Position numbers and translations under genes: made by a program. Shown here piece after piece: positions 23,404-39,001 of a stretch of DNA of 47,292 bases (positions are counted from its first letter, which is position 1; the number at the start of each line of letters is the position of its first letter). The notes below the pieces were generated by a model. That model had not been told where the DNA came from. It saw nothing but the letters and a program-made list of their open reading frames with translations, and searched no databases. Source of the stretch: Nitrospirae bacterium JdFR-81 (GTDB taxonomy: Bacteria > Nitrospirota > Thermodesulfovibrionia > UBA6902); assembly GCA_002011735.1 (NCBI GenBank), contig MTOQ01000038.1, forward strand, positions 1-47,292, in the 5' to 3' direction.

Positions 23404-24447
23404 CTATATAATGGAGAACTTCTCACTCAATACCACCTCAACCACAAGGGGATCGAACTGTGTCCCTGCATTATCCATGAGCTCCTTCTTGATAAGCTCT
23501 TCAGGCAGATTGCCCCTGTAGGGCCTTGACCTCAGCATTGCATCAATCGCATCTGCAACCGCCACTATCCTTGCCGAAAGGGGTATGTCCTTACCCTTCA
23601 GGCCCCTTGGGTATCCCCTGCCATCGTACCTCTCGTGATGATGGAGGATCACAGGTATGGCCTCTTCAAGGAAGGGCACGGCACTCACAATCGTCACCCC
23701 TATCTCAGGATGCTTCTTCATTATCTCGTATTCCTCAATACTCAAACTGCCCTGCTTCCTGAGTATCCTCTCATCAATGCCTATCTTCCCTATATCATGT
23801 ATTAAGGAGGCGTGTTTCAGGCCCTCTATCACACTTGATCCAAGTCCCAGACTCCTTGCTATTGCACACGTCAGCTCAGAAACCCTACGAGAATGGGCGT
23901 TCGTATAGCTGTCCTTTGCATCGATGGCAAGCAGGAGGGCATTTATCGTGCCCTCAAAGGCTGCAATGAGATCACTCTTCGCCCTTGCAATCTGTTCCTC
24001 AAGCAGGCTTGCCCTTATGCGCAGGTGCTCCTGTTCAACCTTGCTGGTATGGCTCTGAAACTTCTTCTCCAGGCCCTTTCTTACGGTATTCAACAGGTCG
24101 TCCTTGTCAAATGGCTTCATCAGGTAGTCGAATGCACCATACCTCACGGCATCCCTTGCGGTCTCGAGGCTTGCATAGGCGGTCAGGAGCATGACCTCTG
24201 TCTCAGGAGAGAGTTTCTTGATCTCCTTCAGTGTGGTTATACCATCCATGCCTGGCATCTTTATATCCAGGATCACGAGATCAAAACTCTCCTCTTGCAG
24301 ATAGGCAAGCCCCTGCTGTGCATCCGAGGCGAGGACCACCTCATATCTATCCTTGAGGACCATCCTGAGGGACTCCCTTGCAGATATGTCATCATCTATA
24401 ACGAGTATCCTGCCGTTATCCCTGAGACTCTCTTGTATCAGATTCAA
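23404..24447 (-). CDS. Response regulator with HD-GYP output
   Basis: A receiver domain (about residues 13-128) has the acidic pair in LVIDDD, the phospho-acceptor Asp61 in LVILDIKMPG, the conserved Thr in LLTAYAS and the Lys in MKPFD. A coiled linker leads to an HD-GYP domain (about 185-345) with HDIGKIG, the HHHERYDGRGYP signature and AVADAIDAM. HD-GYP domains hydrolyse cyclic di-GMP or related dinucleotides. The active-site residues appear complete. Its 5' end overlaps the gene of the degenerate kinase by 32 nt, so the two are probably produced together. Confidence 0.94.
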   Translation of the reverse strand: MNLIQESLRDNGRILVIDDDISARESLRMVLKDRYEVVLASDAQQGLAYLQEESFDLVILDIKMPGMDGITTLKEIKKLSPETEVMLLTAYASLETARDAVRYGAFDYLMKPFDKDDLLNTVRKGLEKKFQSHTSKVEQEHLRIRASLLEEQIARAKSDLIAAFEGTINALLLAIDAKDSYTNAHSRRVSELTCAIARSLGLGSSVIEGLKHASLIHDIGKIGIDERILRKQGSLSIEEYEIMKKHPEIGVTIVSAVPFLEEAIPVILHHHERYDGRGYPRGLKGKDIPLSARIVAVADAIDAMLRSRPYRGNLPEELIKKELMDNAGTQFDPLVVEVVLSEKFSII

Positions 24448-26458
24448 CTGATGCAGCCCTCCTCTCTATGGCTGGTATATTTATAACAAAGATATTCCTA
24501 CCTTTCTCTGAAAATATTTCAAACTTCCCATTATGCCCGTTCACTATCTTATGACTTATCGGTATGTTTAGCTCTATCTCAAGATTATCAACCTCGGTAA
24601 GGGGCTTAAGCATATCCCTCCTCTCCTCCTCGGTAAACTCCTCCCCCTCGAACCCTATCCTTATCTCAAGGGAGGGCAGGCCCTTCATGATGGTCCTTGC
24701 ATCAACCACCAATGAGAGATCAGGCCCGTATCTGCTGATGATATACGCAACAACATAATAAATGGCCTTAACAAGGAGCTTTTTATCGGCACTGATCAGG
24801 AGAGAGGGTTCTATGTCATGCCTCTGAAGATTATACCCTTGATGTATATGTTTTTCAAGATAATCTGCTATCTCATCAAGCAGTGTGTCCACATCAACAT
24901 TCTCAAAATTAAACTCCTGTGATATGGAGAAGGTGATCAGACGGTCTATGAGTGTATCAAGCTTCTGGATAGAGCGGTTTACCGACGACACATAAAAATC
25001 ATGGAGCTCTGTATCATCCCTGTATTTTTCATTTATCAGCTGGACATATGTCTGGATGGATGTAAGTGGATTCCTTATCTCATGGGCTATCTTTGCCATG
25101 AGCTGGTTTACTGCCTCGATCTTCTCTGCCCTCCTGAGCCTCTCCTCAAGCTGCTTGGAATCCGAGAGGCTTGAGAACACTATACCGGCACCCACGGGGT
25201 TCTGCTGTTCATCAAGCAACCTGTAACTGTTTATCCCGAGGGGTATCCTCGAGGGGAGTATCTCAACCTCGTAGCGCCTGTATGATGTGCCTGTAAGCAT
25301 TGTCTCATACAATATATCCCCCAGGGGTGAGGGCAGACGCCTCAGATCACTACCGATCACCTGTGATGGATCTAAATTCAATATCTCTGCAGCCTGTTGA
25401 TTGAATACCGTAATCTTCCCATCTTTATCAATGGCGATCATCCCGCTGTTCATGCTTGCAAGGATATTCTTTGTAAACTCCTTCTGATACCACATCTGAT
25501 GATACTGGTCTATATCCTTGACAGCAGCAGCGAGATAATTGCAGAGGACATAGATTATCTCGAGCTCCTCTCTATAGAAGGGTTCATCCGTGATCTTATT
25601 GTTTATATTAAAAATGCCTATGAGCCTTCCCTTGTATATCATCGGGAAGGAGAACGAACACTGAAGGAGGTCCATCTCCTTTTTGATATTAACAGCCACC
25701 CTGTTGGAGGGATTGACAGGTTTCTGCATTATCCTTCCGTGTTTCATAAGCCATCCAGCAAGGGCGCTGTCCTTCCTCAGCCTGATGTTCTCTGCGATAT
25801 ACGGATCAAGACCATAGTGTGTCTTCACATAGAAGCCGTCCCCCTCTCTCAGCATAATGGACATCTTGCTTACCCGTGCGATCTCCATAACAGAGTCCAT
25901 GAAATGGTTAAAGAGCTTCCGCATATCAAAGCTTGCAGTGAGCATCTTGGCAAAATTGACAAGGACCTTCTCGGGCAGGTACTTGCCACTCGGGAAGGAC
26001 TCGAAACGGCCTGAAAATACATCAACCTCGGACTTAACATATGCAGGCAGGTGATTTGAGTTATTATTGTCTTTTATCTGCCTTAACAATCTGAGTTCAC
26101 TCTTAAACCTCTGCCTCTCAAGGGCACGCTCAACCACGATCGGCAGTTCAATCCTGAGGGATTCAAGACCGACACTATCGTAAACACTCGATGGCAGGGC
26201 ATCAAGGGCGTGTTTATCAAGCTTTTCAGGTGCGATAAGCACAACCATATCATCGTCCAGCTTATTCAGGACCGTGTTGAGGGAAGAGAGGTTGTGAGAG
26301 ATGGTATCAATAATTACCAGGCTGAGCGGGATGTTACTGTTTAAGTCCTCAAGCTCTTCTACGGTCTTTAAGGGATATACGGTATATTTTCTTATCGACT
26401 CTTTCACATGAGGTATTATCTGTTCGTCCCTGTTACTTAAAAGTGCAAGCAGCTCCAT
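24416..26458 (-). CDS. Histidine kinase homologue with decayed ATP-binding domain (pseudokinase)
   Basis: This 680-residue soluble protein has a receiver-like N-terminus (about 1-115, Asp51 in SLVIIDT), a GAF domain (about 165-315), a PAS domain (about 328-430) and an intact dimerisation/phosphoacceptor helix, KIAHEIRNPLTSI, with His459. The ATPase domain has lost its key motifs. The N-box region reads LVKAIYYVVAYIISR with no Asn, the G1 box is GFEGEEF instead of DxGxG, and the G2 box is NLEIELNI instead of GxGLGL. It therefore probably cannot bind ATP, but its His could still be phosphorylated by a partner. A canonical kinase gene lies 47 bp upstream in the same direction, and the response regulator overlaps its 3' end. 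Compositional drift alone would rarely remove all three motifs while keeping the H-box. Confidence 0.85.
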   Translation of the reverse strand: MELLALLSNRDEQIIPHVKESIRKYTVYPLKTVEELEDLNSNIPLSLVIIDTISHNLSSLNTVLNKLDDDMVVLIAPEKLDKHALDALPSSVYDSVGLESLRIELPIVVERALERQRFKSELRLLRQIKDNNNSNHLPAYVKSEVDVFSGRFESFPSGKYLPEKVLVNFAKMLTASFDMRKLFNHFMDSVMEIARVSKMSIMLREGDGFYVKTHYGLDPYIAENIRLRKDSALAGWLMKHGRIMQKPVNPSNRVAVNIKKEMDLLQCSFSFPMIYKGRLIGIFNINNKITDEPFYREELEIIYVLCNYLAAAVKDIDQYHQMWYQKEFTKNILASMNSGMIAIDKDGKITVFNQQAAEILNLDPSQVIGSDLRRLPSPLGDILYETMLTGTSYRRYEVEILPSRIPLGINSYRLLDEQQNPVGAGIVFSSLSDSKQLEERLRRAEKIEAVNQLMAKIAHEIRNPLTSIQTYVQLINEKYRDDTELHDFYVSSVNRSIQKLDTLIDRLITFSISQEFNFENVDVDTLLDEIADYLEKHIHQGYNLQRHDIEPSLLISADKKLLVKAIYYVVAYIISRYGPDLSLVVDARTIMKGLPSLEIRIGFEGEEFTEEERRDMLKPLTEVDNLEIELNIPISHKIVNGHNGKFEIFSEKGRNIFVINIPAIERRAASVESDTRESQG

Positions 26459-26505
26459 ATGCCCCTTTAAAATAATACAACTAATATTAAAATTTTATCA
26501 AAAAC

Positions 26506-30125
<3,620 letters not shown>

Positions 30126-30209: not shown

Positions 30210-31313
30210 CTATACCACCCTCTTTTTAACAAATCCCCTGCTTATACAATATTCTAATACTTTTAAAAAGGATTCTCTATTGAAACCTGTGAACTCGAAT
30301 CCATATTCTTTCAGGAGGGTATTTGTCGTTGTTGAATCAAGCACAACCTCATTATTATATAAGAGGATGTTATTCTGTAGGAGCATCCTCTGGGCTGGCG
30401 TTGGATTCTTTTTAAAGAACTCATCAGGTGAGACAAGGACAGGACGTTTAAAACCAATGAATTCGCTCGAGATATCCAGTATCGTTTCAAGCGACACCGA
30501 CCTGTTATCAAAAAGATTGTAGGTCCTATTTGGATATGGTGTGTTGGAGGCAATCTTAAACAGGGCGTTACAGAGGTCGTCTACATGAACAATATTCACC
30601 TGGCATCCCCTTCCAGGAAAATAATCGAATATCTCAAGACCCCACATATGAAGAAGTTGATACACACCCTGCTGAAAGGTGATGGTCTTGCCTGTTAGAG
30701 ACTCTCCAATAACGAGTGGAGGCCTGAATACATCTATCCATAGCCCCCCTCTTCTATATCCCTCTATCAGTTTCTCTGCCTCGAACTTGCTCTGTTCATA
30801 TGTGGAATTAAACCCCTGACCCCTGTCCAGATCGTCTTCTCTAAAAACACCTTTAAAATCCCCGCATACATAGGCAGTGCTCAGATGATTCACCTTCTTA
30901 AGCCTTCCCTCCCTGTGTAACACAAGCGCAAGCTCAAGGAGGTTCCTTGTGCCCCGGACATTATATCTCCTGACCTCATCAAGGGGCAGGTTAAACTGTG
31001 TTGATGCTGCTGAGTGAAAGATCTCCTCTATCTCACTTTTTAATAAGTCTATATCGTGATTTCCAAGCCCGAGGTTCTTTTGTGTTATGTCTCCTTCGAG
31101 AATTACAAGATTACCATGTTTGCTTGATAAAACACCTTCATCCCAGAATCTCAGAGCCTCCACAACCCTTTCACCTGCATTTTTGCTATCCCTGCTCCTT
31201 GCCAATGCATAAACCTTGCAGTTGTTCTGTAATAATATCCTTAACAGATAAGAACCGATTAAACCTGTGGTTCCTGTAAGGAAGACCACTTTATTTATTG
31301 TTTCCCTGTTCAT
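30210..31313 (-). CDS. Thioester reductase-like extended SDR (NAD-binding_4 type)
   Basis: The NAD(P)-binding motif FLTGTTGLIGSYLLRILL begins at residue 11, followed by VYALARS. The active-site signature has Ser145 in HLSTAYV, Tyr172 and Lys176 in STYEQSKFEAEK, and IFHSAASTQFN. This pattern matches the extended SDRs called thioester reductases/male-sterility proteins, which release acyl thioesters from ACP or CoA as aldehydes or alcohols. It is 367 residues, a stand-alone domain. A nucleotide-sugar epimerase is possible but less likely given ARS after strand 2 and the VRGTRNLLELAL segment. Its ATG overlaps the TGA of an upstream remnant frame as ATGA. After the TAG stop, 27 more sense codons continue in frame. 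Confidence 0.75.
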   Translation of the reverse strand: MNRETINKVVFLTGTTGLIGSYLLRILLQNNCKVYALARSRDSKNAGERVVEALRFWDEGVLSSKHGNLVILEGDITQKNLGLGNHDIDLLKSEIEEIFHSAASTQFNLPLDEVRRYNVRGTRNLLELALVLHREGRLKKVNHLSTAYVCGDFKGVFREDDLDRGQGFNSTYEQSKFEAEKLIEGYRRGGLWIDVFRPPLVIGESLTGKTITFQQGVYQLLHMWGLEIFDYFPGRGCQVNIVHVDDLCNALFKIASNTPYPNRTYNLFDNRSVSLETILDISSEFIGFKRPVLVSPDEFFKKNPTPAQRMLLQNNILLYNNEVVLDSTTTNTLLKEYGFEFTGFNRESFLKVLEYCISRGFVKKRVV

Positions 31314-31540
31314 CTTATTCCTTCTAATAGCTTGGCAGGACTCATTAACTTTAATATCCTTTTTATTTTTCTTTTATAAATGCTTTCACACCTTCGTGTA
31401 TTGAAGAAAAATACTGGATGAGTCCTCAAAATCCTTATATTTTGCATATAATGAAGCCAGCTGATAAACCTAAGTTGAGAAATTAATTTGACTTTTCCTG
31501 ACAATCTCTTGTGAATATAATTATACCTGGAGAAAAAATT
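31310..31540 (-). pseudogene. 3' remnant of an upstream gene (truncated)
   Basis: A minus-strand frame ends with TGA overlapping the ATG of the thioester reductase-like gene in an ATGA junction, typical of coupled genes in one operon. Its last ~65 codons read like a real basic C-terminus (RISQLRFISW-like helices, then KIKRILKLMSPAKLLEGIR at the end). Upstream of about 31540 the frame loses protein-like character and overlaps the plus-strand DUF5678-like relic. I read this as the tail of an operon gene whose 5' part was lost. The family is unknown. Confidence 0.35.
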
Positions 31541-31800
31541 TGATCTGTGGATAGTGGAACACTTCAGCGAACTGGTAGAAAAGTATGCTGGTAAATATAT
31601 AGCTGTCGTAGATGAACGGTTAGTTGCCGTGGGCAAGACCGGCAAAGAAGTAGAAGGAAAGACAAGAAAGTTTAATCCACACAAGATTCCGTCCGTACTC
31701 CGTGTTCCTCGCGAAGAGGATATGACGTGTCTCTTACAGAATTTCCACATGTCCACTATAAAGGTCATTTGATACCCATGATTCCAGTTGCAATCTCTAA
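31527..31800 (+). pseudogene. Relic of a DUF5678-type protein with frameshifted aspartic-protease-like tail
   Basis: The plus strand encodes a compact domain (VEKYAGKYIAVVDERLVAVG, then KIPSVLRVPREEDMTCLL) that resembles DUF5678 proteins from memory. No ATG precedes it; the codon at the expected start is CTG (31527). After TCTCTT (31730-31735) the coding signal moves to the +1 frame, which reads TEFPHVHYKGHLIPMIPV, similar to the start of retropepsin-like partner proteins, and then decays. One deleted base near 31736 would rejoin the two. The lost start codon, frameshift and missing catalytic region mark it as a dead insertion. Confidence 0.45.
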
Positions 31801-31911
31801 TCACCGACCATCAGCCGCAAGGGCATCTTTGACCAATTCCAAATTTGCTTCAACGACCATACTCGCAAGGTGTCCTTTCAAAAGATTTAATGCTACCCTA
31901 TCTTGAATCAT
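31801..31911 (-). CDS. Possible 36-residue ORF overlapping the ketosynthase stop
   Basis: A frame starts with ATG overlapping the last codons of the ketosynthase gene and runs 36 codons (MIQDRVALNLLKGHLASMV, then ending LVKDALAADGR). It is amphipathic and protein-like, and its overlap would allow coupling, but it is short, lacks a ribosome-binding site and may be the 5' fragment of a lost gene. Confidence 0.22.
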   Translation of the reverse strand: MIQDRVALNLLKGHLASMVVEANLELVKDALAADGR

Positions 31912-33118
31912 ACTTCTTTATCACCAGGCATGAGTTGTTTCCACCAAAGGCAAAGGCATTGTTTAAAACAACCCTTACATTTTTAATCCTTGCCTTGTTG
32001 GGGACACAGTCTATGTCACAGTATGGGTCAGGGGTCTCAAAGTTTATGGTGGGAGGAATTATATCCTCGCTGACGACAAGACAGCATGTCAATGCCTCTA
32101 TTGCTGATGCAGCACCCATCGTATGACCGATCATGGACTTTATCGAGCTTATAGGGATGCCCTTATATCTCTCCCCCAGAACCTTTTTTATGGCAGAGCA
32201 TTCAACCCTGTCATTGCCAGGTGTGCCTGTCCCATGGGCACTTATGTAGTCAATATCATCTGCATCAATACCTGCATCCTCCATCGCCTTTTTAATAACC
32301 TTCTGTATCCCCTCCACATGCCCTGTGGTTATATGATAGGCATCACAACTTAGGCCATAGCCGAGTATCTCTGCATAGATCCTCACCCCTCTGCTCAGGG
32401 CAGATTCAAGCGATTCAAGTATCAGGATGCCTGCCCCCTCTCCAAGGATCATGCCCTTCCTGTTCTTATCGAATGGCTGGCACCTCTCAGGGGCCATTGC
32501 ATAGAGACGGTGAAAACCGCTGAAGGCAAGCTTTGAGAAAGACTCTCCTCCTCCTGCAATGGCATAGTCAATATCTCCCTTTTTTATCAGATCAAAGGCA
32601 TAACCTATGGCATAATTTCCGGCTGCACAGGCAGTGGGGATCAGATAGTTTGGCCCCTGGATCCTGAAGTAATTGGCAACATTTGTCGATATGTTATTGG
32701 CGGTGGCCTGTAAGACCATCTGTTTGTCAATCCTCTCAACACCCTCCTTCACCCACTTATCAATCGACTCCTCCATCGGCCTCTCTCCCATGGTGGTCCC
32801 GATAAAGACGCCAGCCCTTTTCTTCTCCAGATCCTTCTGTCTCAGTCTGGCATCCTTTAAAGCAAGGATAGAGGCTGAGATGGCAAATTGAGAGGTCCGA
32901 CCAAGAAATGGGATGAGCCTCCTGGGAATAAATTCATCTGCCCTGAAATCCTTTATCTCGCCGGCATAATGACACCTTAATTTACTTGTATCAAAGGATT
33001 CGACCCTGCTTATACCTGACCTGCCATTTATTATGGATTCCCAGAACCTTTCTTTACCAATTCCAACAGAAGAGACAACCCCCAGACCTGTAACTACAAC
33101 CCTGCGATTATTCATCAT
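31898..33118 (-). CDS. Beta-ketoacyl-ACP synthase (KSalpha), catalytically complete
   Basis: This 406-residue FabF/KAS-II-type ketosynthase has the full Cys-His-His triad: Cys164 in PTACAAGN, His295 in SAHGTGTPGND and His332 in IGHTMGAAS. The Gly-rich C-terminal AFGGNNSCL is also present. It would decarboxylate malonyl-ACP and extend an acyl chain. It is the last of five genes KR, CLF-like, ACP, DH, KS, and its pairing with a degenerate second KS is the layout of type II polyketide and aryl polyene systems rather than of housekeeping fatty acid synthesis. Confidence 0.93.
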   Translation of the reverse strand: MMNNRRVVVTGLGVVSSVGIGKERFWESIINGRSGISRVESFDTSKLRCHYAGEIKDFRADEFIPRRLIPFLGRTSQFAISASILALKDARLRQKDLEKKRAGVFIGTTMGERPMEESIDKWVKEGVERIDKQMVLQATANNISTNVANYFRIQGPNYLIPTACAAGNYAIGYAFDLIKKGDIDYAIAGGGESFSKLAFSGFHRLYAMAPERCQPFDKNRKGMILGEGAGILILESLESALSRGVRIYAEILGYGLSCDAYHITTGHVEGIQKVIKKAMEDAGIDADDIDYISAHGTGTPGNDRVECSAIKKVLGERYKGIPISSIKSMIGHTMGAASAIEALTCCLVVSEDIIPPTINFETPDPYCDIDCVPNKARIKNVRVVLNNAFAFGGNNSCLVIKKYDSR

Positions 33119-33148: not shown

Positions 33149-33589
33149 TCATGATGTCTTTCTCACCCCGAACACAAGGCTCGCCCTGGCAACTATCCTG
33201 TCCTCGACCCTTGCCAGTGCATCCACCACACCTGCGTTATCTGTGATCTTAACACCCTTTACCTCTATAAAAAGCCTATCACCAGGATAAACGGGATGGA
33301 GGAACTCGGCCTTTACTCTACCAAGATAATACTCTGGTCTTGTCTTTGCCACCTCGGGCTTGCATACATGATAAAGTATCAGTGAGGTCTGTGCCATTGC
33401 CTCCACTATCAGGACACCTGGCATTATCGGTCTTCCAGGGAAGTGACCCCTGAAGAAGGCCTCGTCACCGTTTATGTCCTTAACAGCAATTACTCTCTCA
33501 TTGCCCTCTATACTGACAATCCTGTCAACAAAGAGAAAGGGTTCCCTGTGAGGCAGGATCCTTTTGATCTCTTCCTTATCCCAATCCAT
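33149..33589 (-). CDS. fabZ: FabZ-type 3-hydroxyacyl-ACP dehydratase
   Basis: The 146-residue hot-dog protein has the FabZ signature: catalytic His14 in ILPHREPFLFVDRI and Glu63 in PGVLIVEAMAQ, with FRGHFPGRPIMPG between. It removes water from 3-hydroxyacyl-ACP to give a trans-2-enoyl chain. Genome-wide FabZ usually sits with lpx genes; here it lies between ACP (23 bp away) and KSalpha (30 bp), suggesting dedication to this cluster. Confidence 0.93.
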   Translation of the reverse strand: MDWDKEEIKRILPHREPFLFVDRIVSIEGNERVIAVKDINGDEAFFRGHFPGRPIMPGVLIVEAMAQTSLILYHVCKPEVAKTRPEYYLGRVKAEFLHPVYPGDRLFIEVKGVKITDNAGVVDALARVEDRIVARASLVFGVRKTS

Positions 33590-33612: not shown

Positions 33613-33849
33613 TCATTCTCGCTTTTTATCCAGATATTCCATTATATTCCTTATCGTCCTGATGTTCGGGATATCATCTTCCGGGATCACAATCTTATAC
33701 TTCTTTTCAAATGCCGCCACGATCTCGATCGCCTTAAGGGAATCGATATTTAGATCCCTGAAGAAGTCAGCATCAGGTGTGAGCTTCTCAACCGGAACCT
33801 CGGTAACGTCCGAGACAAGCTGTCTTATTTCGTCAAGACCATCTGTCAT
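33613..33849 (-). CDS. Acyl carrier protein
   Basis: The 78-residue acidic helical protein carries the phosphopantetheine attachment Ser37 in LNIDSLKAIEIV. It would carry the growing chain of the surrounding ketosynthase pair. AAGGAGGGC a few nucleotides before its ATG is a strong ribosome-binding site. A long hairpin lies just upstream, between it and the CLF-like gene. Confidence 0.94.
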   Translation of the reverse strand: MTDGLDEIRQLVSDVTEVPVEKLTPDADFFRDLNIDSLKAIEIVAAFEKKYKIVIPEDDIPNIRTIRNIMEYLDKKRE

Positions 33850-33868
33850 ATGCCCTCCTTAAAAATCT

Positions 33869-33935
33869 GACATCAGACAAGACATTACTGGCCGGTCATT
33901 GGCTTTACCTATCCAGTACCCAATTGTCTGATGTC
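33869..33935. terminator. Long bidirectional hairpin with A/T tracts between CLF-like and ACP genes
   Basis: GACATCAGACAA (33869-33880) pairs perfectly with TTGTCTGATGTC (33924-33935), and inner TACTGG (33886-33891) pairs with CCAGTA (33913-33918), around a 21-nt loop. T7 follows on the plus strand (33937-33943) and T5 on the minus strand, so it reads as a terminator in both directions. Inside a co-directional operon it may be an attenuator, an mRNA-end protector for ACP, or an inserted palindromic element. Confidence 0.6.
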
Positions 33936-33947
33936 GTTTTTTTATAT

Positions 33948-35186
33948 TCAGTTGTATTTCGATATTATCAATGATGCGTTGTTCCCTCCTGGCCCGAAAT
34001 TATTGATCAACACATTATTCACCCTTGCTACCCTTGCCCGATGTGGCACATAATCAAGGTCGCACTCCTCATCCCTTTCAGAGTAGTTAATCGTGGGTGG
34101 GATGAAACCCTTAACAATACTGCCCACCGAGGCAATTATCTGGAAGAGACCGCCTGCACTGAACGGCTCACCGATCATTGACTTAATAGCACTCACGGGT
34201 ATGTTGTAAGCAAATCTCCCAAATGCATCCTTTATCGCCATTGTCTCAAGCCTGTCATGTTCTGGCAGGGAATTGGCAGAGGCACTTATATAATCAATCT
34301 CTGTGATATCGAGGCCTGAATTATAAATCACCTTTATCATACTCTCCTTAAGCCCCTGTGCATTTGTTGAATACTTGCCCATTCTATGAACCTCGAAGGA
34401 GTTGCCCATCCCTTTGATCTCGGCATATATACCTGCCCCCCTCTCTTCGGCTGTCTCTACCTTTTCTATCACCACAAAGCCTGCCCCTTCTCCAAGGACT
34501 ATACCGTTCCTCCTCCTGTCAAAAGGACATGAGAGTTCCTCACCATCCATACCTGCAAGCAGTCCCAGCCTGTAGAAGCCGACAAAATTTACGAGGGAGA
34601 GGCTCTCCACCGCACCCACAAGCATGGTCTTGACCCTTCCCATCCTTATAAAATCAATGGCATACCTCAGTGCATCAATACTCGAACTATATCCCGTTGA
34701 GATGGTAGTGTTCACACCCTGAATACCGAATCTGATCGAGACATAACTTGAGGCTGCATTCATCACCGTGCCCGGGAATAGAGAGGCATCGGTAAAGAGT
34801 GGGCCATCGATTATGGCGCCCCTCTCAAATTCAGAGAAGTTCCATAGATATCCGAGTGTTGTTCCGGTGCAGACCCCTATATCATCTGTATTCTTATAAT
34901 TAATGGTCAGTCCTGCATCGTCTATCGCCAGTTTCGCTGCTGAGCAGAGGAGCCTCGCCGACCTGTCAAGCTCTTTAAGACCCTTCTGCCCCAGAAAGTG
35001 TGTTGGCCTGAAATCGCTTATTTCGCCTCCCTGCTTGCACTTAAATTCGCTGGTGTCAAACCTCTTTATCGGTCTGATGCCTGACCTCCCCTCCCTGAGG
35101 GATTGCCAGAATTCCTCCTTTCCTATGCCATTCGGTGCTATAACCCCAATCCCTGTTATAACTATACGATCTTTACTCACCATCAA
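33948..35186 (-). CDS. Ketosynthase homologue lacking catalytic residues (chain-length-factor-like, KSbeta)
   Basis: The 412-residue protein aligns along its whole length with FabF-type ketosynthases (RIVITGIGVIAPNG start, LGEGAGFVVIE middle, FGPGGNNASL end). All three catalytic residues are gone. The active-site Cys position is Tyr166 (STGYSSS), the first His is Ser303 (SASANSLPEHD) and the second His is Glu340 (SMIGEPFSAGG). Loss of the triad in a gene next to an intact KS is the mark of a chain length factor in type II polyketide systems, where KS and CLF form a heterodimer that sets chain length. A decayed pseudogene is unlikely because the frame is intact and the fold-forming regions are conserved. 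Confidence 0.88.
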   Translation of the reverse strand: MMVSKDRIVITGIGVIAPNGIGKEEFWQSLREGRSGIRPIKRFDTSEFKCKQGGEISDFRPTHFLGQKGLKELDRSARLLCSAAKLAIDDAGLTINYKNTDDIGVCTGTTLGYLWNFSEFERGAIIDGPLFTDASLFPGTVMNAASSYVSIRFGIQGVNTTISTGYSSSIDALRYAIDFIRMGRVKTMLVGAVESLSLVNFVGFYRLGLLAGMDGEELSCPFDRRRNGIVLGEGAGFVVIEKVETAEERGAGIYAEIKGMGNSFEVHRMGKYSTNAQGLKESMIKVIYNSGLDITEIDYISASANSLPEHDRLETMAIKDAFGRFAYNIPVSAIKSMIGEPFSAGGLFQIIASVGSIVKGFIPPTINYSERDEECDLDYVPHRARVARVNNVLINNFGPGGNNASLIISKYN

Positions 35187-35220: not shown

Positions 35221-35973
35221 TCACACCAAACTCATTCCACCGTCTATAACTATGGCCTGACCTGTGATATACCGAGCTTCGTCGGTGGCGAGAAACCTCA
35301 CCACTCTTGCAACCTCCTCGGCGTTCCCTGGTCTGTTCAATGGTATATATTTAACTATGCGATCCCTGTAATCCCCTCCCATCTCCCTGAGCATATCTGT
35401 CTCGATAAAGCCAGGTGCAACGGCATTAACCCTGATGTTATACGGAGCTACCTCCCTTGCAAGGGCCTTTGTAAAGCCGATGATGGCTCCTTTTGAGGCT
35501 GAATAATTCGTCTGTCCAGGCAATCCCCTGATCCCGCTTATCGATGAGATATTGATTATAACCCCGCTCCTCTGCTTGATAAGGCCAACAATTGTCGCCC
35601 TTGTAAGGTTATATGTCCCGTTCAGGTTTGTGTTTATGACATCATGCCAGTCCTGTGGCTGCATGAAAGCAAGGGCCCTATCCCTTGTTATCCCTGCGTT
35701 GTTGATCACTACATCAATCCTTCCAAAGGACTCCATGGTGTCATCAACCCATGCCCTTACTGCCTCAAAATCCCTGATATCCACCTTGAACGCCCTGGCC
35801 CTCACCCCAAGACCACCAATCCTCTCCTCAAGTTCTTTTGCCTCTGAATCACTCCTCAGATAATTAAAGCTGATGTCTGCGCCCTCACCTGCTAATTCAA
35901 GGGCAATGGCACGGCCTATCCCCCTTGTCGCTCCACTGATAATTACAGTCTTATCTCTAAGGAGATTACCCAT
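35221..35973 (-). CDS. fabG: FabG-type 3-ketoacyl-ACP reductase
   Basis: A classical short-chain dehydrogenase of 250 residues: NADP-binding SGATRGIG (13-20), NNAG (91-94), and the catalytic Ser144, Tyr157 and Lys161 in NISSISG and NYSASKG. The end TGQAIVIDGGMSLV is typical of FabG. It reduces 3-ketoacyl-ACP. It is the first gene of the ketosynthase cluster, 34 bp before the CLF-like gene. GGAAG lies directly against the ATG, so the ribosome-binding site is poor. Confidence 0.92.
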   Translation of the reverse strand: MGNLLRDKTVIISGATRGIGRAIALELAGEGADISFNYLRSDSEAKELEERIGGLGVRARAFKVDIRDFEAVRAWVDDTMESFGRIDVVINNAGITRDRALAFMQPQDWHDVINTNLNGTYNLTRATIVGLIKQRSGVIINISSISGIRGLPGQTNYSASKGAIIGFTKALAREVAPYNIRVNAVAPGFIETDMLREMGGDYRDRIVKYIPLNRPGNAEEVARVVRFLATDEARYITGQAIVIDGGMSLV

Positions 35974-36413: not shown

Positions 36414-37475
36414 CTAAAACAGGCTGAACTTAAAGTATCGCCTCGGGTTATCCCTCATATCCTTTATCAGGGCATTAAGCTCTTTGAGTGTGGTCTTCAA
36501 TTCCGTGGATAGCTCCTCGTCTCTTATGAGACTCCCCATAACCCCCTCACCCTTCTCCACCCTTTCAAGGAGCACGGCGAGCCTCTCTGAAACACTGTTG
36601 ATATTCTCATACAGGCTCTCATCCTCTATCAACCTGCCCAGCGTGCCTCTTGATCTGGCAAGCCTGTCTGTAAACTCCTCAAGGCTCTCCGATGCCCTTA
36701 GAAACCGCTCATAGAGTGCCGGATCTTTTATTACTTTATTAAGTGTACCCTCGGAGGTCTTCAGGGATTCTGCAAAGGCGCTTATATCCTTTACAGAGGA
36801 TGAGATATCCTGATAAATCGTCTCATCCCGCATAAGTCTTCCGAGTGTCCCCTCCCCAGCCTCAAGCCTCTGAAGGAGCCTTGCAAGCTCACCTGTGGTC
36901 TCCTTCAGATTCTCATACACAGATGGATCCCTGATAAACCTTGCCACAGTGCCCTCACCCTTTTCGATCTTCCGTATTATCTCATCAAGGGTCTTTATAA
37001 ACTCAGAGAGCCTTTCGATCGACTCCTTGCCTGTTTCAACGACCTCCCCTATCTCTATCTGGGAGGTCCCCTGGATGGTATCTCCTGGTTCAAGGGGTTC
37101 TGCACCCTTTGAGCCAGGGTCTATCTCCATATATTTGTCCCCAAGGAGCCCAAAGGTCAGGATGGTTGCCCTTGAGTCCTTCTTTAGGTATTTAAGGACA
37201 TCAGGGTCCAGCGAGATGGTCGCCCTTATCCTTTGCTGGGGCATGAATTGTAACGATTTAACAGAACCAACCTCGATGCCAGCAAACCATACAGGGGCAC
37301 CCTTCCTGAGCCCCTTCACATCATCAAAAACAGCATACACCTCAACCCTTGAGGTAAAGAGCCCTTCAAGACTGCCTGCAAACAGCACTGCGAGGACAAG
37401 GACAATGAGTGCGATGGTGATGAGGATGCCAACCTTCAATCCGGCCCATCTGAGGTGTTTTACATGATCATACAT
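36414..37475 (-). CDS. mlaD: MlaD-like MCE-domain lipid transport protein
   Basis: A single transmembrane helix (about residues 14-36) anchors an MCE domain (about 40-118, with VYAVFDDVKGLRKGAPV and VWFAGIEVGSV). The remaining ~220 residues contain five copies of a ~40-residue unit built on G-x-GT-x-GRLIRD-x-x-LY-x-N (for example GEGTLGRLMRDETIYQD), probably a helical extension. MlaD rings bind phospholipid and pass it between inner membrane and periplasm. It is 9 bp downstream of mlaF in an mlaEFD operon; mlaB and mlaC are not here. Confidence 0.92.
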   Translation of the reverse strand: MYDHVKHLRWAGLKVGILITIALIVLVLAVLFAGSLEGLFTSRVEVYAVFDDVKGLRKGAPVWFAGIEVGSVKSLQFMPQQRIRATISLDPDVLKYLKKDSRATILTFGLLGDKYMEIDPGSKGAEPLEPGDTIQGTSQIEIGEVVETGKESIERLSEFIKTLDEIIRKIEKGEGTVARFIRDPSVYENLKETTGELARLLQRLEAGEGTLGRLMRDETIYQDISSSVKDISAFAESLKTSEGTLNKVIKDPALYERFLRASESLEEFTDRLARSRGTLGRLIEDESLYENINSVSERLAVLLERVEKGEGVMGSLIRDEELSTELKTTLKELNALIKDMRDNPRRYFKFSLF

Positions 37476-37484
37476 TTACTCTAT

Positions 37485-38240
37485 TCAACATCTCCCTTCA
37501 ATGGTAAAGAGCTCATTGATAAAGGCCCTGAGCTCTGGATCGGTCGTTTCTTTAAGCGATTTCATGTCACCATCAAAGGTTATTTTACCATTTTTAAGAT
37601 ACATAAACCTATCAGCGACCTTCGCAGCATCAGACACCTTATGTGTCACGATTATAAGCCCCATCCTGTCAGGTGGTTCACCCGAGGAAAGCTCCTTTAT
37701 CATGGCACAGATATTATCCGAGGTCAGCGGGTCCAGGCCGGTGGTCGGTTCATCATAGAGCATGGTCTTTGGCCTGCCTGCTGCAAGTGATCTTGCTATG
37801 GCGACCCTCCTCTGCATGCCTCCACTGAGCTCCTCTGGCATGAGGTCGATCGCATCCTCTATACCAAGCCTCCTGATCAATGCCCTGACACGCTCCTCTA
37901 TCTCCTCCTCTGAAAGGCCCGAATATTCCCTGAGGCAGAATGCAACATTATCACGCACACTTAATGAATCGAAAAGTGCACCCTCCTGAAAGACGATGCT
38001 GAACTTCATCCTGACATCCCTCAATTCAGACTCTGACATCACTGTAATATCCTGACCATCAATGATTATCCTCCCCTCATCAGGCCGTATAAGGCCCAGG
38101 ATGAGCTTCAGGATGGTGGTCTTGCCCTCTCCGCTACCACCGAGTATGGCAACCCTTTCATAGAAATTGATGCGAAAACTCAACCTGTCAAGGACGACAT
38201 GATCCCCGTATGAAAGGACCACATCCCTGAACTCTATCAT
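37485..38240 (-). CDS. mlaF: MlaF-like ABC transporter ATPase
   Basis: An ABC ATPase of 251 residues with Walker A GGSGEGKTT, signature LSGGMQRRVAIARSL and Walker B TMLYDEPTTGLDP, close to MlaF of the phospholipid transport system. The reading frame is open further upstream to 38384, but that stretch is the overlapping mlaE sequence. ATG 38240 (MIEFRDVVLSYG) has GATGAGGGT upstream and overlaps the mlaE TGA by 4 nt, so it is the true start. It energises transport through MlaE. Confidence 0.93.
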   Translation of the reverse strand: MIEFRDVVLSYGDHVVLDRLSFRINFYERVAILGGSGEGKTTILKLILGLIRPDEGRIIIDGQDITVMSESELRDVRMKFSIVFQEGALFDSLSVRDNVAFCLREYSGLSEEEIEERVRALIRRLGIEDAIDLMPEELSGGMQRRVAIARSLAAGRPKTMLYDEPTTGLDPLTSDNICAMIKELSSGEPPDRMGLIIVTHKVSDAAKVADRFMYLKNGKITFDGDMKSLKETTDPELRAFINELFTIEGRC

Positions 38241-39001
38241 ACCCTCATCCCCAGCAGATAAAGCAGTATCCTCGTAAGGACAAAGTCTGATAGGATGATC
38301 ATTATCGTGGACAGCACCACTGCCGATGTTGTAGACCTCCTCAACCCCCTCGCCCCCCCACTCGTTGAGAGGCCCATATAGCAACTTATACAGGATATAA
38401 GGTATCCAAAGATGAATGGCTTTGCAATACCTGCGAAGATGTTCTCGAATATCATTATATCCCTTATCTGGCTCCAGTAGAACGAACCACTCTGATGGCT
38501 GACAAAGGCAACGATGTAATAGCCCCCGAACAATGAGACGGCATCACCTATAATAGTGAGGATGGGTAACATCACTATTGAACTTATGACGCGTGGTGTA
38601 ACGAGCTTCTTTATAGGACTTATACCATACACCCTCAATATATCCACCTGATGCCCGAGCATCATGGAGCCAAGTTCCGACGCCATCCCTGAACCCACCC
38701 TGCCTGCAAAGCTGAGGGCTATCGCAACAGGCCCTATCTCCCTTATGATCGATATCCCCACTATCCTGCCTGTATACATCCTGAGTCCCAGGGCACCAAG
38801 TTCGGCAGAGACCTGCAGGGAAAGCGCCATGCCTATGAAGAGGGAGACAAGGAGGACGATAAAGAGCGAGCCCGCGCCCGCATAATCCATCTGTTCGATG
38901 ATATCACGGATATAAACAGGCCTCTGAAAGATACCGATTGGAGCCTTAACGGAGAGGATATAAAAATCCTGAACCTTCTTTATGCCCTCTTTCAGATTCA
39001 C
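38237..39001 (-). CDS. mlaE: MlaE-like permease
   Basis: The 254-residue integral membrane protein has about five helices and the conserved MlaE core RVGSGMASELGSM and LRVYGISPIKKLVTPRVI. It is the inner-membrane channel of the MCE/ABC phospholipid transporter. It starts with GTG, after TATAAT on the minus strand (39028-39023) that lies 21 nt upstream. It is first in the mlaEFD unit that reads toward the ketosynthase cluster. Confidence 0.93.
   Translation of the reverse strand: MNLKEGIKKVQDFYILSVKAPIGIFQRPVYIRDIIEQMDYAGAGSLFIVLLVSLFIGMALSLQVSAELGALGLRMYTGRIVGISIIREIGPVAIALSFAGRVGSGMASELGSMMLGHQVDILRVYGISPIKKLVTPRVISSIVMLPILTIIGDAVSLFGGYYIVAFVSHQSGSFYWSQIRDIMIFENIFAGIAKPFIFGYLISCISCYMGLSTSGGARGLRRSTTSAVVLSTIMIILSDFVLTRILLYLLGMRV

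Follow-up and report, generated by a model that had tools for sequence, protein, structure and literature searches.

The window, the whole stretch of 47,292 nucleotides analysed here, encodes on its minus strand a ketosynthase (KS) in which the entire Cys-His-His catalytic triad has been replaced. This protein is probably a non-catalytic subunit resembling a chain-length factor (CLF), which most likely forms a 1:1 complex with the intact KS of the gene 31898..33118 and would shape the chain built by an accessory type II FAS/PKS. This reading has the strongest support: the loss of the triad is conserved, the gene is under purifying selection, an intact KS is frequently encoded nearby, and a relative has been solved together with its KS and an acyl carrier protein (ACP). 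An earlier note on this DNA had already proposed a chain-length-factor-like partner; the non-catalytic partner holds up in the light of the conserved triad loss, the nearby KS and the PDB entries 9s5h and 9s5i, whereas the accompanying remarks on the residues found at the Cys position do not.

A ketosynthase without a catalytic triad

The reading frame (33948..35186) is open and has the full length of a KS. An in-frame ATG lies directly after the listed TTG start, and since the starts of the orthologues align with this ATG, it is probably the genuine start, which makes our residue numbers one lower than those given previously. Both KS domains are matched (Pfam ketoacyl-synt, 155.6 bits; Ketoacyl-synt_C, 76.1 bits), in agreement with the intact frame and the KS fold motifs described in the earlier note, and the NCBIfam fabF models score well under their cut-off (TIGR03150, 345 bits versus 493.75). 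In an alignment with FabF, C163, H303 and H340 correspond to Tyr165, Ser302 and Glu339 (166, 303 and 340 in the former numbering), so the replacement of the whole triad was correctly reported. The catalytic Lys is retained (K334), E349 is changed to Gln, and the gating Phe400 is replaced by Pro398 (Table 1). Overall, the FabF positions C163, H303, T305, T307, K335, H340, E349 and F400 read Y, S, N, L, K, E, Q and P in this protein. They read C, H, T, T, K, H, E and F in the adjacent intact KS, to which it is 38% identical and which is indeed the complete KS three genes away, being the third gene downstream.

Table 1. Coordinates of the triad-less ketosynthase gene, its active-site codons and the neighbouring genes in the window
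Feature	Position	Strand	Remarks
Triad-less ketosynthase, probable CLF-like subunit	33948..35183	minus	411 aa from ATG; 412 aa from TTG at 35186
Tyr165 codon (TAT), catalytic Cys position	34689..34691	minus	F or Y in 67/79 clade members
Ser302 codon (TCT), first catalytic His position	34278..34280	minus	From the FabF alignment
Lys334 codon, retained catalytic-site Lys	34182..34184	minus	K in 78/78 readable clade members
Glu339 codon (GAG), second catalytic His position	34167..34169	minus	E in 73 and D in 5 of 78 readable members
Pro398 codon, gating Phe400 position	33990..33992	minus	Pro in 60/79
FabG-type ketoreductase	35221..35973	minus	TIGR01830 above cut-off; homologue near core in 51/79 loci
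Acyl carrier protein	33613..33849	minus	PF00550; near core in 51 loci
FabZ-type dehydratase	33149..33589	minus	PF07977, NF000582 above cut-off; best PDB match 7qv0
Intact ketosynthase (C-H-H-K), proposed catalytic partner	31898..33118	minus	Best PDB match 9s5h_B, 496 bits
Thioester-reductase-like protein (NAD_binding_4), possible reductive release	30210..31313	minus	Profile match
CrtI/phytoene-desaturase-like flavoprotein	28611..30110	minus	Profile match; near core in 29 loci

Conservation of the replaced site and proximity of an intact ketosynthase

Residues were counted in 79 clade members from the collected loci, the Lys and second His positions being readable in 78. None of the 79 keeps the catalytic triad. 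The position of the nucleophile (FabF 163) is occupied by Phe in 46 members, Tyr in 21, Val in 4, Met in 3, Glu in 3, and Ile and Gln in one each, and position 305 (Asn304 in the window protein) is Asn in 73. Because the Lys is invariant, the second His is always replaced by Glu or Asp and the triad is never kept, its loss cannot be ascribed to chance. Relatives with restored triads, which had been named as a possible refutation of the CLF-like reading, are thus absent among these 79 members, and the reading is not refuted. Tyr at the Cys position, considered unusual in the earlier note, appears from this alignment to be a normal state of the clade and no oddity. The description of CLFs as carrying "Gln or another small residue" at this position also proved too narrow, as the canonical CLFs that we fetched have Gln or His, and an Apilactobacillus CLF has Lys. 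The triad-less clade is under purifying selection, with dN/dS values between the closest pairs of 0.05-0.12 compared with 0.04-0.08 for the partner KS; in comparisons involving the window gene, synonymous sites are saturated.

In 58 of the 69 testable loci, the same strand carries an intact partner-type KS (residues CHTT) no more than 4 kb away; the complete set of 79 comprises these 58, 10 truncated loci and 11 where such a KS is missing. The latter belong mostly to a subgroup of Omnitrophota, and FabG and FabZ are encoded nearby in those examined. Adjacency to a KS is therefore not universal, and it is chiefly these loci that weaken a rule that the gene is always paired. When eight genomes were searched (seven of the exceptions and one related), three had a KS with a match of 57-60% elsewhere and five had nothing above FabF-like matches of 40-43%. 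Judged from the sequences, the gene comes after riboflavin genes in the Omnitrophota exceptions (L063, L064, L067, L068, L071, L076, L083, L092, L096). In two of these loci, a Pfam scan identified the triad-less KS followed by FabG, FabZ, an acylphosphatase, a metallophosphatase and ligA.

These observations bear on the possibility that the protein is an enzyme with a different chemistry, for example the loading or recruitment of an uncommon acyl group, a role that Rattray et al. put forward for the anammox paralogues (PMC2649909). We consider this unlikely. The near-invariance of Lys334 and Glu339 and the conservation of Asn304 indicate a constrained pocket, and the Omnitrophota that keep the gene with FabG and FabZ and no adjacent KS would suit such an enzyme. 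However, a nucleophile position that accepts Phe, Tyr, Val, Met, Ile, Glu or Gln offers no conserved nucleophile, the Lys and Glu are possibly structural, and most of the testable loci do have the intact KS alongside.

Solved and predicted structures

The best PDB match of the triad-less KS is 9s5h_C (382.6 bits, 49% identity), followed by an ordinary FabF at 281.6 bits, and the intact KS of the window matches best the co-chain 9s5h_B (56% identity). The triad-less KS (chain C) and the active KS (chain B) each occur eight times in the two entries 9s5h and 9s5i, and 9s5i also contains an ACP. Chains C and B of 9s5h are each 94% identical to the products of neighbouring genes of Candidatus Brocadia pituitae; the species of 9s5h is deduced here from sequence, as our literature search found no paper on this entry. 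In KS dimers, the acyl tunnel ends at a helix of the dimer interface. The AlphaFold monomer of the triad-less KS has a pLDDT of 90.9 and a pTM of 0.90, with pLDDT values of 56-70 over most of residues 111-140; this stretch may be the tunnel-end helix region, where low confidence would be expected with the partner missing. Foldseek recovered the general KS fold only, 9s5h being absent among the 50 matches listed. Mapping of the gate residues F109/T112/F116, which we take from the Act structure to set chain length in the Act CLF, onto the triad-less KS was abandoned, the helix alignment being ambiguous.

A subunit that pairs with the KS but only stabilises it or docks the ACP, chain length being set otherwise, is more improbable still. 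It would be consistent with the presence of the KS pair and an ACP in 9s5i and with Iga11-Iga12, where the ACP touches mainly the CLF (PMC8358021), but the precedent of an acyl tunnel ending at the KS/CLF interface (PMC12664062) leads us to expect some influence on the tunnel. A KS fold that lacks the catalytic Cys also recalls the KSQ-type malonyl decarboxylases that generate starters, a very improbable function here, which we rejected on the residues: decarboxylation by a KS requires two His (PMC2649909, citing mutagenesis), both of which are replaced clade-wide, and Gln stands at the Cys position in 1/79 members, the window protein having Tyr, Ser and Glu and not Gln with both His. Finally, a decaying duplicate of the adjacent KS, which the loss of the whole triad and the 38% identity to that KS might suggest, is hardly credible and was rejected, since the frames of the collected relatives are open, none of the 79 has the triad, the replaced site follows a fixed pattern throughout the clade and dN/dS is low.

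Operon and genome setting

On the minus strand, the genes are arranged in the order FabG, triad-less KS, ACP, FabZ, intact KS, thioester-reductase-like protein, CrtI-like flavoprotein, histidine kinase, second kinase and HD-domain response regulator. No enoyl reductase was recognised in the window operon, and a (poly)unsaturated acyl chain would therefore be the expected product. The genome (2.05 Mb, 96% complete) harbors four KS genes, two in the window and two elsewhere. One of the latter, on contig C27, is accompanied by genes for an ACP and a FabG-like reductase, which resembles a primary fatty-acid operon. Given this separate fabF-acp-fabG set, the window operon is accessory.

We propose that the active KS carries out acyl transfer and decarboxylative condensation, while the CLF-like subunit would form with it a heterodimer in this organism, contributing its side of the interface at which the acyl tunnel terminates. 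The latter subunit probably aids ACP docking and, by shaping the tunnel, would influence which chain is made and how long it becomes; its own pocket is probably plugged by the aromatic residue, Tyr or Phe, that stands in place of the nucleophile next to the conserved Lys-Glu pair. Together with FabG, FabZ and the dedicated ACP, the complex would constitute the accessory type II FAS/PKS. The CrtI-like flavoprotein may then modify the acyl chain, and the thioester reductase may release it by reduction.

Some additional features of the locus deserve mention. A strong hairpin followed by a T run (33855-33947; -30.4 kcal/mol, z -5.25) lies between the triad-less KS and ACP genes; it has no Rfam match and could act as an attenuator inside the operon. 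Lipid-transport genes MlaE-MlaF-MlaD (36414-39001) are found directly upstream of FabG, and a BLAST search found none beside the related operons that were fetched. Downstream of the operon come the two histidine kinases and the HD-domain response regulator (23404-28614), for which many related genomes have similarly placed homologues. Near the partner KS, a thioester reductase is present in 9 loci (8 distinct) and a third KS, about 435 aa long and marked by an NNACASG motif, in 18 (16 distinct). The two never occur together in one locus, although this is not significant (Fisher p 0.09) once the loci with neither, many of which are truncated, are counted, and it is possible that they represent alternative release steps. 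The gap 31310-31898 of the window showed no match to a remnant of the third KS.

Distribution and phylogeny

Relatives were drawn from a scan of 84,980 named genomes, with group names taken from the record titles, and belong foremost to Nitrospirota and Omnitrophota, then to Planctomycetota, including anammox genera, and to a few other groups. Among 60 related genomes, about 17 have orthologues at 67-75% identity, three have them at 48-51% and the others have ordinary KSs only, pointing to a patchy distribution of the operon. The order FabG-CLF-ACP-FabZ-KS is the same in about 15 related sets, as far as the contig ends allow. A pattern scan of viral contigs recovered no relative of the triad-less KS, and plasmids yielded generic KSs only, all below 60% identity, with 37% the best among the matches listed.

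In a FastTree phylogeny that placed 192 of the 193 collected KS sequences, 80 triad-less KSs, including 9s5h_C, form one clade (support 0.998), also recovered from a smaller set with IQ-TREE under a site-mixture model (SH-aLRT 98). This clade adjoins the intact partner KSs with an SH-aLRT of 86, below the starred level. Aromatic-type and actinobacterial CLFs are placed elsewhere in the free tree, but a constrained tree grouping them with the clade is not rejected (p-AU 0.535), and we therefore do not claim an origin independent from the actinobacterial CLFs. The collection also contains KS relatives that, unlike standard FabF, have the Cys and the first His together with a second His changed to Gln (L110, L111, L121, L128) or Asn (L114, L127).

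Comparison with known KS/CLF systems

Heterodimers of a KS and an inactive KS are established elsewhere (PMC12664062; PMC8358021). Like the window protein, the actinorhodin-type CLF (1tqy chain B) has a KS fold without the catalytic Cys, and its gene is accompanied by those for an active KS and an ACP, but it has Gln at the Cys position, lacks the Lys-Glu pair and belongs to an aromatic pathway; one fetched Act-type CLF is 30% identical to the window protein. ApeC, of the aryl polyene KS-CLF ApeO-ApeC, is likewise a non-catalytic partner in a FAS-like cluster with a ketoreductase and a dehydratase. It is about half the length (240 aa in E. coli CFT073) and has lost most of the second thiolase fold, whereas the window protein is full length. 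The ishigamide system Iga11-Iga12 (6kxd-f) also combines a KS-CLF with separate ketoreductase and dehydratase, its product being a polyene, and 6kxd chain A ranks second among the PDB matches of the intact KS of the window. It differs in being an actinomycete system; the sequence comparison was made for the KS chain.

Relationship with the candidate ladderane cluster of anammox bacteria

A close parallel exists with the candidate ladderane cluster of anammox bacteria, kuste3603-3608, which codes for ACP, FabZ, FabF, a non-canonical FabF, a phytoene-desaturase-like protein and a radical SAM protein (PMC4790861), and where Kuste3606 was termed a "non-canonical FabF" (Rattray 2009, PMC2649909). 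At the eight FabF positions, 9s5h_C has the signature V, N, Y, G, K, E, Q and R, identical to the one given for Kuste3606 (PMC2649909 Table 2). The window protein shares with both the retained Lys, the change of the second His to Glu and that of the neighbouring Glu to Gln, while differing from 9s5h_C by Tyr instead of Val at the Cys position and Pro instead of Arg at the gate. On sequence grounds, we assign it to the Kuste3606/9s5h_C clade.

The gene order of kuste3603-3608 is found in the Brocadia locus. ACP, FabZ, KS, non-canonical KS and CrtI-like genes, the components common to the Brocadiales cluster and the window operon, occur together in locus L094 as in the window. In anammox bacteria the order is ACP-FabZ-KS-dead KS-CrtI-radical SAM, whereas that of the window is rearranged, with FabG and the thioester reductase in addition. 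No radical SAM gene of the Kuste3608 type is present in the window, and a search of the full genome gave at best a partial-length match of 31%. To judge from its gene content, the window operon is a relative of kuste3603-3608 with a rearranged gene order and without the radical-SAM gene.

Kuste3607 failed to behave as a phytoene desaturase (PMC4790861), so the CrtI-like label should not be taken to imply carotenoid chemistry. Ladderane-like clusters have already been reported, with function unassigned, in non-anammox phyla including Omnitrophota (PMC9902471). D. psychrophila, which has a syntenic cluster, contains C31 polyunsaturated hydrocarbons and no detected ladderanes (PMC2649909); by analogy, a polyunsaturated product would be reasonable in the window organism. 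Tentatively, the clade might represent a second, independently evolved KS/CLF system, derived in anaerobes from a duplicated copy of its own partner KS and producing polyunsaturated chains. Its later inheritance, with the addition of radical-SAM enzymes, would have given rise to the anammox ladderane pathway. We regard this scenario as possible but doubtful; if true, a ladderane-free ancestor of the module would survive in Nitrospirota and Omnitrophota.

Since 2009, the "non-canonical FabFs" of anammox bacteria have posed a puzzle, as their active sites are incapable of FabF chemistry. The placement of a protein from a non-anammox bacterium in a large conserved clade, mostly accompanied by an intact KS, favours the view that they are CLF-like partners and not enzymes with a new chemistry. 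The window operon, with FabG, the CLF-like subunit, ACP, FabZ and KS and no radical SAM, also offers a simpler setting for studying which chain such a synthase builds ahead of ladderane ring formation.
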